Positions 793-12,112 of a DNA stretch of 27,181 nt are shown here, piece after piece. Position 1 is the stretch's first letter. Each line of letters starts with the position of its first letter. Under the pieces are notes generated by a model, which was not told the origin of the DNA, made no database searches, and saw only the letters and a list, made by a program, of their open reading frames with translations. The position numbers were made by a program, and so were the translations under genes. The DNA is from a virus: the IMG/VR virus record IMGVR_UViG_3300048925_000317, positions 1 through 27,181 of that record. One strand, given 5' to 3'.

Positions 793-1584
793 TTAGAACA
801 AGCCCGCAGGCTCTGCCTCTCTGTTCCAACTATAGATGACCAACTCTCCTCTCTCGACGCGGTTGGCGGCGCCTCCGACGGTGTAGTCAAGCTTGAGCGC
901 CTCCATCTCGTAATCCTTGAAGCATTCCCGGATGGCTGGGTGATCGTTGATGCTGATGACCGCCTTGCCTTTGATGGTCTTGAGCTTCCTGGCCATCAGC
1001 TCGTACTGCTCCCAGGGAAACGGTACGCCGTAGCCCTCGGTCTCCCAGTACGGTGGGTCTAGATAGAAGAGCGTGTGCGCGCGGTCGTAGCGGTCGACGC
1101 ATGCAGCCCAGTCCAACTGCTCTATATATGTGCCGGCTGCCAGGCGCAGGTGCGCGGCCGAGAGGTTCTCTTCGATGCGCAACAGGTTGATGGCTGGGGC
1201 CGTGGTGGCAGTGCCGAAGGTCTGGCCGGCCACCTTGCCACCGAAGGATTGCTGCTGCAGGTAGAAGAACCTGGCAGCCCGCTGGATGTCGGTCAGCGTC
1301 TCCGGCCTGGTGTCCTGGAGCCACTTGAATACCTGGCGTGACGTCAGAGCCCATTTGAACTGCCGCACAAATTCCTCCAGGTGATGGGTGACGACCCTGT
1401 AAAGATTGACCAGGTCGCCGTTGACGTCGTTCAGCACCTCGACGTCAGCCGGATGCCGTGCAAAGTAGACGGCAGCACCGCCAGCAAAGACCTCGACGTA
1501 GCAGCTATGCGCCGGAAAACGTTTGAGAAGCATGTCGATGAGCCGGCGCTTGCCGCCCATCCAGGGCACGATAGGGTTTGACAT
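793..1584 (-). CDS. dam: D12-class DNA N6-adenine methyltransferase
   Basis: A 263-residue protein that should transfer methyl groups from S-adenosylmethionine to adenine in DNA. The family marks are in order: PWMGGKRRL (residues 7-15), AdoMet-binding VFAGG (32-36), and the catalytic DPPY (176-179). Length is typical of Dam/D12 enzymes. The recognition sequence cannot be read from the sequence. No restriction endonuclease lies beside it, so it is an orphan enzyme, likely protecting phage DNA from host restriction or altering regulation. The start overlaps the last 80 bases of the com-like gene in another frame. The start codon has no Shine-Dalgarno sequence at normal distance (the nearest, GGGAG, is about 20 bases upstream) and lies in the loop of an inverted repeat, which suggests regulated translation. 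In Mu the same place is held by mom, an unrelated modification gene. Confidence 0.93.
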   Translation of the reverse strand: MSNPIVPWMGGKRRLIDMLLKRFPAHSCYVEVFAGGAAVYFARHPADVEVLNDVNGDLVNLYRVVTHHLEEFVRQFKWALTSRQVFKWLQDTRPETLTDIQRAARFFYLQQQSFGGKVAGQTFGTATTAPAINLLRIEENLSAAHLRLAAGTYIEQLDWAACVDRYDRAHTLFYLDPPYWETEGYGVPFPWEQYELMARKLKTIKGKAVISINDHPAIRECFKDYEMEALKLDYTVGGAANRVERGELVIYSWNREAEPAGLF

Positions 1585-1738
1585 TGGTATCAGCTATCGG
1601 CACTCCCTGGTGCTCTTGTGGGGCGCTCTGGGCGCTCAGCTGATTGAATGCCCCACAGCGAGGGCATTTGATCGCCAGCCGGGTGAACTCACCTTCTGCC
1701 AGCTTGCGGCGGCACTGGCCGCAGCGGATTTCATTCAT
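1505..1738 (-). CDS. com: Com-like zinc-finger translational regulator
   Basis: A 77-residue protein whose first 30 residues carry two CxxC knuckles (C6/C9 and C25/C28, the latter as CPRC), the pattern of the Mu Com family. Mu Com (62 residues) is a zinc protein that binds mom mRNA and opens its translation start. Here the downstream gene is an adenine methyltransferase whose start lies inside the 3' end of com, so by analogy this protein may control that gene; this is inference. The start at 1738 follows AAGGG with a 6-base spacing. The tail after about residue 50 is proline- and histidine-containing and is encoded where the two genes overlap, so it may be under little constraint. A small inverted repeat covers the ribosome binding site. 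Confidence 0.88.
   Translation of the reverse strand: MNEIRCGQCRRKLAEGEFTRLAIKCPRCGAFNQLSAQSAPQEHQGVPIADTNVKPYRALDGRQAPAHRHASQTFSGA
1561..1610 (-). promoter_or_regulatory. Inverted repeat enclosing the dam start codon
   Basis: Read on the plus strand: CCAGGG (1561-1566), 2 bases, CGATAG (1569-1574), a 19-base loop, CTATCG (1594-1599), 5 bases, CCCTGG (1605-1610). Both 6-bp arms are perfect. In the mRNA this forms a two-part stem with a 5/2 internal loop; the dam ATG (1582-1584) is in the apical loop and the only upstream GGGAG is in the 5' arm. This is the arrangement expected of a translation-inhibitor stem that Com might open. Function is inferred. Confidence 0.6.
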
Positions 1739-2385: not shown

Positions 2386-4244
2386 TGCTTTGTTGTCTCC
2401 AGCCATGTGCTGATAGATGAAAAGATGCCGGAGGGGACTTTGTAAGTCTTCCACGGCGGCACAGTCGCTGTCACGGCCAGACTCAGACCCACCGTCGCCT
2501 GCGATGAGCCGACAAATGACTTCCCGTCAACTTCAAGGACAGCGGTTGCCTGGGGAACTGCGGCAGGACCAGACACATTGACCTCAATGTCATCGTCCGT
2601 GGAGTTCGTGTATGTGGTCCCCAGAATGCGTGTCGCAGCCAAATTGCGTGGGGCACGCTTGGATGGCTTGGCCTCAAGGCTTGACACCCGCGCGTCGATC
2701 ATGTCCATGCGCGCATTCAGTGCTGGCGCATTCAGATCACCCGCGTTTGTGACGCGGCCGTACATGCGGATCATCCAGATGCCGTACCAAGTACGGGGAC
2801 GGAACTCTCCTGTAACGGGGTCTGTCGTCGTTCCTGGTGGCAGGGCGGCTGATGCGTCCAATTGCAGAGAGGCGCCCTGATTTGTACCGCTGGTCGCATC
2901 CGGGAACGCGTTTGCAGTACGGAGCTTCACGGAGAGAGCACCACTTGCCGATAGACTCCCTTCGCCCAAAAATTGGTAGGCTGCACCTGGGTCTGATGAC
3001 ACCGAGCCCACGATGTTGCGCATCGCATCAATGACCGCGGTGCCTGGCTTTGCACCCGCAGGGTTGGCGCCAACACCGTAGAAGGCGCCCACGTTCCCCG
3101 GCTGCACGCCGTTCTTGTCCGGCGGCCGCATCCAGCTGGCGCCGTCGCCCAAGCTCCAGTGGGTCACGCGCTTGTAGGGGTCGGCCTGCCAGACAGCTTC
3201 CGTGCACGTGAACTGCGTTGCAGTCACTTGTGCCCGCATCGTGGGGTACATCAGGTCTGTCAGCTGCTGGCCGCTGGACTGCGTGTCACCTTCTGGCATG
3301 GCTGCTGCGAGACCAGCCCAAAGATAGGGGGTAAACCGTGGCATACCCGCTGCCGCCAAAGCACGGTCTACATACGCTGTGTTTGCAGGGCTCCGGCCGT
3401 TATCACCTTCCGGACGATCTGGGACGTTTTGCCCTCCAGTCCACTGGAATACGAGGGGCGTCGTGCCTACAACCACTTGGCCATCGGTTTTCAGCGTCCA
3501 CTGGGTGTCTGCGTTGACCGTCCCACTTTCCACCGGCACAGTGGCACCAGGATTGAGCTTGGAGCCACTGTCTGCATCCACCGCACGAGTCCACACCCCC
3601 GCTGCTGCAACGTAAACGCCATTGGCGGCCGTTGCAGCCTGGTCTTTCACCAGCACTCGATCGCCAGAAATAACGGCTATGCCGTCAATACTTTGCTCTC
3701 CTGAAAGGATGATCGGCGCCACCGTGGCTACACGCACGCTTTGTTTGTGGTCGCGCTTGGCCAGCTCGTCGCGGACATGGTCAATGACGAAAGACCGGGG
3801 AGCCATCACAACCGAGTTGTCGACCAGCAGCGTCACGCTGGCAGCATTGCTGGTCTGGAAAATAACCCGCACGTAGAACTGCTTACCGCTGCCGCTGGCC
3901 AGCAACGGCTTCACGCTTTCTGCGCATTTGGCCACGGCATAGAGGATGCCTGTATCCGTAAAGATGCCCATCGCACGGATCGTCCAGCCGCCAACGTCAT
4001 CCGGCAGCAAGCCTTCCGCCACCAGCCAGGTGGGGTTGTTGGGGTCTTGCAGCAATGCGTTGAGTGGGCGCCGGGGTGTGACCTCACGGCGCAATGCTGT
4101 CATCGCCGGGTCAGGGTTATAGACAGCGCCATTGCCGTCACAAATCCCGTAATGTGTGAGCGTGATAGGCTTGTTCTGGGCCTTCTGCTGAGCTTCATAG
4201 GCAAGCCCAGCATTTGTCAGAATGGTGTAGTAGTCCTGCGCCAC
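2382..4244 (-). CDS. Tail fibre protein (P2 gpH-like)
   Basis: A 620-residue fibre that should bind the host surface. Residues 1 to about 165 resemble the tail-collar/DUF3751 module that attaches P2-type fibres to the baseplate. Residues about 168-272 form a recurring phage-fibre module (SIDGIAVISGDRVLVKDQ, then NGVYVAAAGVWTRAVDAD). The middle is specific to this phage, and the C-terminal end (from about 505) starts with a short coiled coil and a beta-rich tip that probably carries receptor specificity. Translation starts at a GTG at 4244 with GGAG 7 bases upstream, one base after the gpI stop. The fibre assembly gene follows with a 4-base overlap. The host receptor cannot be predicted. Confidence 0.9.
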   Translation of the reverse strand: MAQDYYTILTNAGLAYEAQQKAQNKPITLTHYGICDGNGAVYNPDPAMTALRREVTPRRPLNALLQDPNNPTWLVAEGLLPDDVGGWTIRAMGIFTDTGILYAVAKCAESVKPLLASGSGKQFYVRVIFQTSNAASVTLLVDNSVVMAPRSFVIDHVRDELAKRDHKQSVRVATVAPIILSGEQSIDGIAVISGDRVLVKDQAATAANGVYVAAAGVWTRAVDADSGSKLNPGATVPVESGTVNADTQWTLKTDGQVVVGTTPLVFQWTGGQNVPDRPEGDNGRSPANTAYVDRALAAAGMPRFTPYLWAGLAAAMPEGDTQSSGQQLTDLMYPTMRAQVTATQFTCTEAVWQADPYKRVTHWSLGDGASWMRPPDKNGVQPGNVGAFYGVGANPAGAKPGTAVIDAMRNIVGSVSSDPGAAYQFLGEGSLSASGALSVKLRTANAFPDATSGTNQGASLQLDASAALPPGTTTDPVTGEFRPRTWYGIWMIRMYGRVTNAGDLNAPALNARMDMIDARVSSLEAKPSKRAPRNLAATRILGTTYTNSTDDDIEVNVSGPAAVPQATAVLEVDGKSFVGSSQATVGLSLAVTATVPPWKTYKVPSGIFSSISTWLETTKQ

Positions 4245-9364: not shown

Positions 9365-11832
9365 CAATAGCTCCTCCGCGCCTTTCGCTCCACCACCCGG
9401 TCAATCAGCCGCTCCAGCTCCTGCAGAGACATCTGCACGCCCTCATTCAGTTGGCTGCGAACCGCTTCTGGGGTTCCGGCCGCCAGCTGGATGTTCGGGC
9501 TGAAGTGAATCACCATCCCACCGCCACCTCCCATGCCTGCAGTACCGCCACCTCTCTGAGTAGGTGTCAACTTCTGATAGGACTGCTGCGTCGAGCTGGC
9601 CAGATCCATTTGCCAGGCCCCGGCCGCCTGCTTGGCCATGCCACTCACGGCTTTGCCGGCCAGGCTGGCCGAACGGTTCACGCCCAGCGCTGCGCCCTGG
9701 GCGATGTTGTCGCCAAAGCCCATGAACACCCGGCTGGGCGACTTGATGCCAAGGGTGCTGGTGAACCAGCCCTTGATGCTGCTGCCCATGCCCACAATGG
9801 CATCCCGCGCCGCCGTGAGCTTGGAGGTCACCCCGCTGACCAGGCCGTTGATCAGGTCCGCTCCTGCAGACATGAACTTGGTTTTCAGGCCTACCAGCCA
9901 GTTGTAGCCCGCCAACGTGGCAGCCTTGACCTTGTCCCAGTTCTTGTAGACGAGAAATGCTGCCACGCCGATCGCTGTCACCGCCAAGCCAATCGGGTTC
10001 ATCAACATCGCCCGGCCGAGCCACAGCACTGCCTGGCCGGCCAGGCGCAATCCGGAGAGAAGTGCACCACCAAGCACGCGGCCCAGCAGCAGCGCGCCTT
10101 GGCCTAGCAGCTTCAGGGGCCCCAGAAACGTCATGGCCAGGCCTTTGCCAAACAGTAAGGCATATCGGCCCACCGTCATCAAGCCACTGACGACCGACCT
10201 CAAGCCGGCGATCGCAGGCGCAAATGCCCCGGCTTGCCACAGTCCGCGCAGCATGGTCCAGCGTGCACTGGCTCCCAGGGCAACAGTGCGCATCGCCGTC
10301 AGCGGGCTCAGTACCAGGTTCAGCCCGTATTTCAGCCCGATGAAGCCCAGCTTGCCGGCCAGTAGGCCTGCCGTCAGACCGATCACCCCTTTGATCAGGC
10401 CAGGGTGCTCTTTGGCCCAGTTGCCAAACGCGGTCACCACCGGGCGGATTTCCTGGCCGAATTCAATCAGCGGCGGCAACAGTACCTCGCCAATGGTCAG
10501 GCCAACATCGGTCAGTCCAATCTTGAAGGCCTTGAACTGCTCCGTGGCAGTCTCCATGCGCTTCTTGTAATCCTCGTCCAGCAGCCCTTTATCCGCCGCG
10601 CCCATCGCGCCGTCCTGGATGTCCTTCATCTCGCCCATGTTGGCGATCGCTGGCTTGATGAAGTTCATGGCCTGCATATCCTGGAACAGGTCACCCAGTT
10701 TGTAGGCCTCGGCCAGGCGCTGCACAGCCGCCTTGCGCTCGCTCTCGTCTTTGATAGCCAAGGCTTTCTGCATCTCGCCCGCAGCAGCAGGCGACTTCTT
10801 CCCCATGTAGTCGGTGATGATGCTGAGCATGGACTGCATGGGCGTCATCCCCTGCTCACGCAGGTTCATCATGCTTTTCTTGAGGTCAATGCCCGCCTTC
10901 TCAAAGTCCTTCAGTGTTTCCGGGGCGGTGAGCTTTGCCAGGAAGTTGCGAAAATTGTTGGCTGCCTCGTCATTCGAGCCAGCGCCTTTGCGGGCAATCT
11001 GCAGGGCAGCGCCGATCTCGGCCACAGCCTCCTTGCCCGTGACACCCAGTGCTTGAAACGATGGAGAAAGCGACGGCAGCCACTTGGCCATGTCCCGGAT
11101 CTCAAACTGTCCACGCTTGCCGGCGTAGGCCAGCATATTCAGCGCGCCTTCAAATCCGTCTTCACCGATTTGGAGGTTGTCTTTGAGGGCCAGGGCCACG
11201 CTTCCCAGGTCGTCCATGCTGGCCCGAGTGCCCGTTGCAGCTTTGGACATGATGGGCGCATACCGCTCCAGCGCATTGGCATCCTGAATACCACCAGCTA
11301 CCAGGACGCCAATGCCACGCTGGATATCCGACTGGGTCTGATTCCACTGCACGGCCGACTCACGGATGGCTCCGCCAAGCTTCGCTTCCTGCGCTGCGCT
11401 GAATTCGCCTGTGATTGCCGTGTCCCGCAGCTTGTCCTGGAAGTCGGCGGCCACCATGACCGATTTCACCACTGGGGCGCCAATGGCTGCAGCCGTCCCG
11501 ATGGTCTCCATCGCTTGGCTCCGCATTTCCGACCGGCCATTGCGCAAAGCGTCCCCTCTGGCCATGGAGGCAGTCAGTTGATCCTGCTTCAAGCGCAGGC
11601 GGTCCATGGTCAGGCCCAACTGGTCATACTGCCGGCGCAAATCGCCAAGGCTTTTCCCTGGACGCGTCAGCGCTTGGGCCATGATCATGCCCAGGCGCTG
11701 CTGCTTGCTGCTCAGTTGCTCTGTGACCGAGCCGATGCGCTCCAGTGTCGAACGAGCCGAGCCGAAGGCTGCATTGAAGCTGCTGGCCAGCACTGAGCCA
11801 ATCTTGACGCTGATGAGCAATTCATTGGCCAT
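9364..11832 (-). CDS. Tail tape measure protein
   Basis: An 822-residue protein, the longest in the window, which sets tail length and helps DNA entry. It opens with a helical and coiled region (LSSKQQRLGMIMAQALTRPGKSLGDLRRQYDQL), contains a TP901-type core (AAATGTRASMDDLGSVALALKDNLQI and the following region, about residues 190-400), and has strongly hydrophobic segments at about 470-660 including WLGRAMLMNPIGLAVTAIGV. The C-terminal part has a glycine-rich stretch. At about 0.15 nm per residue a tail of about 120 nm is expected. The start at 11832 has AAAGG 9 bases upstream. The chaperone gene precedes it, but separated by an unusual 260-base gap that holds a gene on the other strand. Confidence 0.95.
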   Translation of the reverse strand: MANELLISVKIGSVLASSFNAAFGSARSTLERIGSVTEQLSSKQQRLGMIMAQALTRPGKSLGDLRRQYDQLGLTMDRLRLKQDQLTASMARGDALRNGRSEMRSQAMETIGTAAAIGAPVVKSVMVAADFQDKLRDTAITGEFSAAQEAKLGGAIRESAVQWNQTQSDIQRGIGVLVAGGIQDANALERYAPIMSKAATGTRASMDDLGSVALALKDNLQIGEDGFEGALNMLAYAGKRGQFEIRDMAKWLPSLSPSFQALGVTGKEAVAEIGAALQIARKGAGSNDEAANNFRNFLAKLTAPETLKDFEKAGIDLKKSMMNLREQGMTPMQSMLSIITDYMGKKSPAAAGEMQKALAIKDESERKAAVQRLAEAYKLGDLFQDMQAMNFIKPAIANMGEMKDIQDGAMGAADKGLLDEDYKKRMETATEQFKAFKIGLTDVGLTIGEVLLPPLIEFGQEIRPVVTAFGNWAKEHPGLIKGVIGLTAGLLAGKLGFIGLKYGLNLVLSPLTAMRTVALGASARWTMLRGLWQAGAFAPAIAGLRSVVSGLMTVGRYALLFGKGLAMTFLGPLKLLGQGALLLGRVLGGALLSGLRLAGQAVLWLGRAMLMNPIGLAVTAIGVAAFLVYKNWDKVKAATLAGYNWLVGLKTKFMSAGADLINGLVSGVTSKLTAARDAIVGMGSSIKGWFTSTLGIKSPSRVFMGFGDNIAQGAALGVNRSASLAGKAVSGMAKQAAGAWQMDLASSTQQSYQKLTPTQRGGGTAGMGGGGGMVIHFSPNIQLAAGTPEAVRSQLNEGVQMSLQELERLIDRVVERKARRSY

Positions 11833-11854
11833 AGACCCAGACCTTTGCTATCCT
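11825..11854 (+). promoter_or_regulatory. Candidate promoter for the antisense membrane gene
   Basis: TTGGCC (11825-11830) and TATCCT (11849-11854) are each 4 of 6 to the sigma-70 consensus, with an 18-base spacer. Transcription would start near 11861, on the ATG itself, so the message would be leaderless. The -35 box overlaps the start codon of the tape measure gene on the other strand. No Shine-Dalgarno sequence is present, which agrees with leaderless translation. Confidence 0.35.
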
Positions 11855-11860
11855 TGAAAC

Positions 11861-12112
11861 ATGTTTGCAAAAACCGCACTCACCACTAGCCGGACGCTCT
11901 ATGTGCTCCTGGTTGCCCTCGGCCTGATTTGGCTGGCTTGGGTGTGCCTGGCTAATATGTCGCTGGGCATGGCTGCAGCGGTGTTTGTGGTGGCAGGGCT
12001 GCTGATGGTCGCCGTCCTGGCGCCTGTGGCTGCTGCACTGGCCGGCCTGGTGGGAGTGCTGGTGGGCGCGGTAGCTGCACTGCTGCAGCTGGCTACCCGG
12101 CGCGGCGCTTGA
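11861..12112 (+). CDS. Small two-helix membrane protein, antisense in the tail operon
   Basis: An 83-residue very hydrophobic protein: helix 1 about residues 13-33 (LYVLLVALGLIWLAWVCLANM), helices 2/2' about 36-77 (alanine-, valine- and leucine-rich), with a basic end (ATRRGA). It is the only convincing plus-strand gene and fills the gap between chaperone and tape measure, which are normally adjacent in P2-type tails. Its last 20 bases overlap the E' frame on the other strand. The opposite frame across the same DNA reads as a histidine/glutamine/serine-rich peptide without structure, so the plus-strand reading is preferred. Family unknown. A small membrane protein with its own promoter in a structural operon fits a moron, for example superinfection exclusion; this is inference. 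Confidence 0.6.
   Translation: MFAKTALTTSRTLYVLLVALGLIWLAWVCLANMSLGMAAAVFVVAGLLMVAVLAPVAAALAGLVGVLVGAVAALLQLATRRGA

Follow-up and report, generated by a model that had tools for sequence, protein, structure and literature searches.

The window analysed here, the whole 27,181-base stretch of an IMG/VR virus record, carries on its minus strand two overlapping genes, com and dam, which probably form a translational switch of the Mu type, in a variant where two Com operators are closed by a helix masking the start of the target gene. At the level of sequence this is supported by the operators themselves, by covariation, by their match to the Com motif selected in vitro and by the masking helix kept in close relatives. 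We infer that Com of this phage binds both operators, HP1 and HP2, and through them activates translation of dam, as well as the late timing and the purpose of such control. As the target belongs to PF02086 and is not Mom, the locus would be a variant of the com-mom switch, not the mom operon itself.

The com-dam locus and its tandem operator hairpins

The minus strand carries a myovirus late region (tail sheath, tape measure, baseplate and head proteins, terminase and endolysin, by PHROGs; ten ORFs scanned) followed by a tail-fibre protein, DUF4376, com and dam. The com gene (1505..1738, minus strand; 77 aa) matched PF10122, Zn_ribbon_Com, at 48.8 bits (cut-off 22.9), while a profile search gave no NCBIfam match for its protein; a Com zinc-ribbon protein is thus encoded directly upstream of dam, as expected of a Mu-type switch. 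The dam-like gene (793..1584, minus strand; 263 aa) codes for a D12 class adenine DNA methyltransferase (PF02086, 78.1 bits, cut-off 22) with a DPPY motif present as FYLDPPY; its score against TIGR00571, 100.5 bits, is under the cut-off of 114.85 that defines the Dam subfamily. The two reading frames share 80 nt (1505-1584), so that dam begins inside com, at a start codon (1582..1584, minus strand) read from the sequence and the ORF. None of 4227 Rfam models matched positions 1400-1800 up to an E of 1.

The comparison set comprised 190 dam-matching loci (the window among them; some contigs occur twice): 58 with a Com-like ribbon upstream and 132 without; 8 of 66 matches in the first com search were false, having no ribbon. 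The dam start lies 70 nt past the last ribbon Cys codon in 32 of 47 distinct com-dam junctions. These 32 could be aligned without gaps, the 15 with other spacing being left out; the 31 sequences other than the window are the close relatives referred to below.

SELEX with Com of Haemophilus sputorum yielded the motif NGAGNNCC(N)2-3GAGNNCC, the loop CC(N)2-3GAG being a requirement of Com (available part of PMC6483171). Two hairpins in the 3' half of com, within the codons of the C-terminal tail, fit this motif, each with a C-G pair closing the loop: HP1 (1622..1637, minus strand; GAGCGCC-CA-GAGCGCC, stem 1635-1632 with 1626-1623, loop CCAGA) and HP2 (1599..1615, minus strand; GAGCACC-AGG-GAGUGCC, stem 1613-1610 with 1603-1600, loop CAGGGA). 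They are the only two strict matches in the whole window. A hairpin with the CC(N)2-3GAG loop is thus present between the com ribbon and the dam start, a Com site as predicted from sequence. All four pairs of HP1 form in 30 of 31 close relatives, and so do all four pairs of HP2 (30 of 31). The usual places of the hairpins are +17 and +39 nt past the last Cys codon, with strict matches in 71 and 43 of 99 unique regions, respectively. In the window itself HP1 and HP2 had a predicted probability mostly <0.1 (Vienna, contexts tested).

The strict motif was present near the dam start in 41 of 48 distinct com-bearing loci (window included) vs none of 122 com-less dam loci, with a single match in the remaining 1.22 Mb of dam loci. 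In a protein-blind scan of IMG/VR, 37 of 38 matches to the tandem motif had a Com ribbon no more than 150 nt upstream; all 19 matches to a variant with a shorter loop came right after such a ribbon. Outside com the strict motif occurred in 11 of 181 contexts: five matches fell, by eye, in com genes missed by the ribbon pattern (L256, L280 twice, L283 twice), three belonged to operators that precede a second methylase (L205 twice, L275), and three look like chance (L016, L228, L234). In some com-less dam loci, e.g. L029 (CCUGU/ACAGG), L035 and L077, a GC-rich inverted repeat of another kind lies a short way upstream of the dam start.

By a structural rule devised post hoc (a 4-bp stem, a closing C-G pair and a loop C...GA or C...GC in the 70 nt after the ribbon), 161 distinct com segments, which are related sequences, were scored: 152 had at least one hairpin, 107 had two and nine had none. 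With the loci of the motif scans removed, the counts were 113 and 79 of 122. As for controls, 2-mer shuffled segments (n = 3220) gave at least one hairpin in 86 cases and two in one; reverse complements (n = 161) gave one and zero; com-less dam loci (0/106) and dam interiors (0/189, not deduplicated) had none. In L004, L085, L090 and L091 both operator loops carry GC instead of GA, the dinucleotide tied by SHAPE to Com contact. We considered a concerted change from GA to GC as a sign of shared specificity of the two loops; GC was present in both hairpins in only 4 of 107 segments, in HP1 only in 12 and in HP2 only in 2, so the change is not clearly concerted.

Covariation was counted in stem columns that the motif scans had left unspecified, 20:30 in HP1 and 43:52 in HP2, over the same related segments. 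The pair 20:30 is of Watson-Crick type in 138 of 161 segments (2000 shuffles: mean 67.9, maximum 86), with C-G, G-C, U-A and A-U all present. The pair 43:52 is so in 105 of 140 segments (shuffles: mean 57.1, maximum 73); in the 21 segments with a shorter HP2 loop, counted apart, 43:51 pairs in 15 (mean 7.6, maximum 14) and 42:52 in 10 (mean 7.4, maximum 14). The signal persists in the 122 loci outside the motif scans. For 58 representatives of ribbon clusters, 20:30 of HP1 paired in 41 of 58 vs 27.0 (maximum of 5000 shuffles, 37) and 41:54 of HP2 in 28 of 49 vs 15.9 (shuffle maximum 26), while 42:53 (31/49), 43:52 (30/49) and 44:51 (32/49) of HP2 stayed within the shuffle maxima. The com tree had too few supported branches for contrasts of paired changes. 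Amino acids, compared by eye, shift together with the stem pairs (Ser-Ser to Arg-Pro or Lys-Leu; His-Val to Pro-Gly or Arg-Ala); such linked changes would make little sense for the protein alone. On this comparative evidence HP1 and HP2 work as RNA elements.

A covariance model, R1, was built from 26 sequences whose identity to the cluster of the window did not exceed 73.3% over the 60 nt after the ribbon (31 candidate rows with at least three of four pairs per hairpin, from which L007, L008, L110, L250 and L257 were dropped). It recognised the tandem operator of the window as a single element (1597..1639, minus strand) with 49.5 bits and an E of 8.8e-10; the next best match in the window had 10.0 bits (E 0.51). 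One match, inside a dam ORF (E 0.0021), was found in 100 of the 132 com-less loci. Among 20 chosen loci R1 matched 17 at E ≤1 and 14 at E ≤0.001; it missed Mu and Chuche, which have one site by a relaxed motif, and Moraxella Mcat1, which has one hairpin by a looser rule with stems from 3 bp.

Structures around the dam start

Furthermore, the foot of HP1 can pair with the region just before the dam start. The 5' arm of this putative masking helix, UCAGCU (1638..1643, minus strand), and its 3' arm, AGCUGA (1590..1595, minus strand; 5 nt before the dam AUG), form all six pairs in 29 of 31 close relatives; a seventh pair is private to the window. In relatives the 3' arm overlaps an SD-like CUGAG or CUGGA before dam. 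RNAalifold, applied to the 32 close sequences, gave HP1, HP2 and the closing helix unprompted. In a three-helix model of these sequences 97.8% of cells are paired (46.4% at the best slide); its covariation, 0.227 vs 0.087, was reached by none of 500 shuffles, whereas 35 of the 500 had at least as many further pair types. The helix is compensated in L006 and L087 (CCAGUU:AACUGG) and in L107 (UCAGUU:AACUGA), so that compensation among close relatives rests on three sequences and about two events; L007 and L129 are without the helix, and in L208 and L220 it extends into the 5' arm of HP1. Pairing of the start codon beyond this helix (UCA:UGA in relatives, CAUU:AAUG in the window) was also considered and dropped, as it had practically no covariation.

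In a cognate test, 14-nt windows along com (24 in all) were paired with the downstream start region, beginning after HP2, of their own locus and with that of others. Of 152 loci, 51 had no usable operator or start and were left out; 37 representatives of the remaining 101 were taken. Windows +8 and +12 favoured their own partner (z of -3.8 and -4.0; p of 0.0002 and <0.0002), with weaker dips in six other windows (-12, -8, 0, +16, +28 and +32; p 0.01-0.04). With 64 representatives the best z, -4.97, was at the foot of HP1. An earlier scan, with HP2 included in the partner region, gave -1.09 at the HP1 foot but -1.27 at +42 to +46, a dip that is probably HP2 itself in loci with shifted spacing. 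Many single loci of the wide set lack strong pairing at the HP1 foot; the position of the pairing is thus better conserved than its sequence, though not in all loci. Over ten contexts the masking helix had a mean predicted probability of 0.39-0.92 in relatives, with the lowest values when the longest stretches were folded; in the window the helix was dominant only in some contexts without both arms of the hairpin described next, and not in longer stretches.

The original prediction had placed the control of dam in a hairpin at 1561..1610 (minus strand), inside com, that would present the dam start codon in its loop. Both of its perfect 6-bp repeats are real, CCAGGG (1610-1605) with CCCTGG (1566-1561) and CGATAG (1599-1594) with CTATCG (1574-1569), and the dam ATG (1584-1582) does sit in the 19-nt loop, which can fold into a 5-bp hairpin of its own (UGAUA/UGUCA) pairing part of the AUG. 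The GGGAG assigned to the 5' arm overlaps the end of the arm (1607-1603) but is not contained in it, and lies 18 nt before the AUG. This hairpin is the dominant Vienna fold of the window, with a probability of 0.58-1.0 in all 40 contexts that hold both arms (16 of the 56 contexts lacked one arm). It is also seen in minimum-energy folds of the coding strand.

The pairing had been thought to be kept in spite of two overlapping reading frames. We saw that relatives do not keep it: the inner stem forms in 0 and the outer stem in 4 of 31, and instead of compensatory change there was no covariation, 55.5% of cells (window included) being paired vs 55.1% in shuffles. The mean predicted probability of the inner stem in relatives was 0.00-0.01 (eight contexts with both arms); that of the outer stem was high also in L006, L007 and L129. 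Homologues with com and dam intact are thus without the pairing, which refutes the hairpin as a conserved device. Nested perfect repeats of 6+6 bp occurred three times on the minus strand, while 12 Markov-1 random strands of equal length had 2.4 on average (range 0-5), and folding z-scores of six coding-strand sub-windows, -0.76 to -2.18, were only mildly better than those of shuffles; the repeat by itself is therefore no more than chance. The hairpin competes with the masking helix and with HP2; since CCAGGG minus its first C is the HP2 loop, it and HP2 are mutually exclusive. Being the favoured predicted fold in this phage, it may act here as a private extra barrier. In sum, the original prediction had the place and the analogy right and the hairpin wrong: Com logic as in Mu, applied to a D12 methylase, is supported, by elements other than this hairpin.

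Proposed switch and competing explanations

The switch that we propose would work as follows. In the overlapping com-dam mRNA the tandem operators HP1 and HP2, in the 3' half of com, would be closed by the helix UCAGCU (1643-1638)/AGCUGA (1595-1590), which would mask the ribosome-binding region of dam in a three-way junction. Without Com, dam would be poorly translated; in this phage its start is perhaps masked also, or instead, by the hairpin at 1561-1610. Com accumulated late in infection would bind the CC-N2-3-GAG loops of both operators, the masking helix would open and dam would be translated. Phage DNA would thus become methylated late, presumably against host restriction.

One could also take the hairpin at 1561-1610 for the inhibitory structure proper, to be opened by Com. 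Its arms are perfect, it dominates the predicted folds of the window when both are included, its outer stem is highly probable in three relatives as well, and, because its 5' arm is the HP2 loop, Com sitting on HP2 would block it. We nevertheless consider this explanation unlikely, given the absence of the inner stem and near absence of the outer one from relatives, the lack of covariation, a repeat at chance level and an outer 3' arm that belongs to conserved Pro-Trp codons of dam. Com might also act with the opposite sign: HP1, HP2 and the masking helix are compatible in one junction, so binding of Com need not open it. Com could then lock both hairpins, stabilise the closed junction and lower translation of dam, perhaps also of com, as an autogenous brake on a potentially harmful methylase; the location of the operators within com itself would suit such a role. 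Com of Mu, on the other hand, is an activator (PMC6483171, available part), and in L208 and L220, whose masking helix reaches into the 5' arm of HP1, formation of the hairpin should open the helix, which argues for activation. Repression is a quite improbable explanation.

Finally, the hairpins could be a by-product of coding, arising from Ser-Ala/Pro repeats in the Com tail and having no role as RNA. They do fall within codons of com, whose tail has a rough repeat (SAQSAP), and even in L205 the second operator, translated in frame, would give a peptide resembling a com tail at the beginning of the methylase ORF. Yet paired positions change together at the cost of altered amino acids, the operator of L275 lies between two methylase genes with no ribbon (R1, 27.6 bits), and reverse complements and dam interiors yielded practically no hairpins. 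Operators away from com, the R1 match and the control counts led us to reject a coding origin, which we hold to be extremely improbable. Activation of dam by Com through HP1 and HP2 stays the explanation that we prefer.

Other targets and known systems

Profile searches of 58 genes downstream of com (window and Mu included; one gene may match several families) found D12 methylases in 36, N6/N4 in 15, C5 in 4 and Mom in one. In two contigs a second methylase is preceded by a further operator. L205 carries one com ribbon, a C5 methylase, a second tandem operator and a D12 ORF (10179-10221, 10237-11106, 11126-11168 and 11111-11980); the second operator follows after ∼0.95 kb and sits at the beginning of the D12 ORF. 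It is possible that L205 holds a two-gene Com regulon or, instead, a remnant of a second com, since the operator reads in frame like a com tail and the true start of the D12 gene is uncertain. L275 carries, on the minus strand, com, a C5 methylase, an operator outside com and an N6/N4 methylase (1683-1642, 1648-788, 778-737 and 723-4). In this contig, judged by eye, CUUGA:UCAAG would mask the start region of the N6/N4 methylase.

By a looser rule (stems from 3 bp), 11 of 15 named loci had at least two hairpins, some with spurious thirds or 3-bp stems; the 11 include B3, AP3, the mom-like locus JD024, two levansucrase plasmids and DVM-2008. In DVM-2008 (L388/L397, EU982300) the last part of another com ribbon, absent from the annotation and read by eye, lies with hairpins at about 3500-3621, directly before a colicin-M-like bacteriocin gene; the R1 match there has 31.9 bits. 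In L374 and L375 com and such hairpins precede GH68 levansucrase genes on Pseudomonas plasmids. R1 matches to the levansucrase loci are weak (E 0.022 and 0.09). In Chuche (L383) one Com site is followed by CCCCAC...GUGGGG around the methylase start, by eye the layout closest to that of Mu. One genome, G187 (one locus, L266), gave five Com matches of equal score on a single contig, each of the same open-frame length.

We lean slightly towards the idea that Com with its tandem operator is a portable cassette for translational control and forms a small RNA regulon. If so, the targets that have acquired the operator, often with a start-masking helix, would include DNA methylases of at least three families, a mom-like gene, levansucrases and a colicin-M-like bacteriocin; in some phages one Com would serve two methylases via an operator away from com (L205, L275), and the single site of Mu would represent a reduced version. 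Com has until now been mainly a one-example case, that of Mu mom. In the loci compared here, the motif obtained by selection in vitro turns up as a conserved natural element after the Com ribbon, with covariation supporting a role as RNA. This offers a testable operator for the whole Com family and predicts Com-controlled methylases, bacteriocins and enzymes; the natural operator variants should be of use in learning how one zinc ribbon reads RNA.

In the open-access literature searched, no paper listed described Com sites in tandem or upstream of other methylases. The available part of PMC6483171, where SELEX with Haemophilus sputorum Com concerns mom while the hairpins of the window fit the same motif, describes several overlapping motif copies and a possible second Com site in the mom region; it makes no mention of tandem hairpins in other com genes or before other targets. 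As in the window, com directly precedes and overlaps a DNA methylase gene in Pseudomonas phage B3 (AF232233, L379), and an N4/N6 methylase gene in Burkholderia phages AP3 (KP966108, L378) and KS5 (PMC3091744, available part); we found two hairpins in B3 and two in AP3. In all three com was annotated by similarity, and the annotations and the accessible text name no RNA element.

A com-like gene also stands before another gene in the case of Pseudomonas lectin-like bacteriocins and levansucrases (PMC6240691 and PMC3899960, available parts); unlike here, these targets are not DNA-modifying, and in each of the three records examined com is complete before the target begins. In P. syringae a stop codon in com left expression of the levansucrase gene lscB unchanged (PMC3899960, available part). 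This counts against a general role of Com, though the target is a levansucrase; other com homologues upstream of other genes may have masked an effect on lscB. The general role of the Com family is said to remain open to exploration (PMC6240691, in its available part).

The closest comparison is that with com-mom of Mu (AF083977, L293). Both systems have a Com zinc ribbon and a com gene overlapping its target; the start region, masked nearby in Mu, would be masked nearby in the window as well. The Com-type hairpin of Mu, GAAUGCC-UGC-GAGCAUCC, comes 20 nt past the last Cys codon vs 17 nt here. Mu combines this single hairpin with a local inhibition stem, CCCAC/GUGGG (by eye), that holds the GUG start, whereas the window has two hairpins and a putative masking helix spanning both; the target is Mom in Mu and a D12 methylase here.
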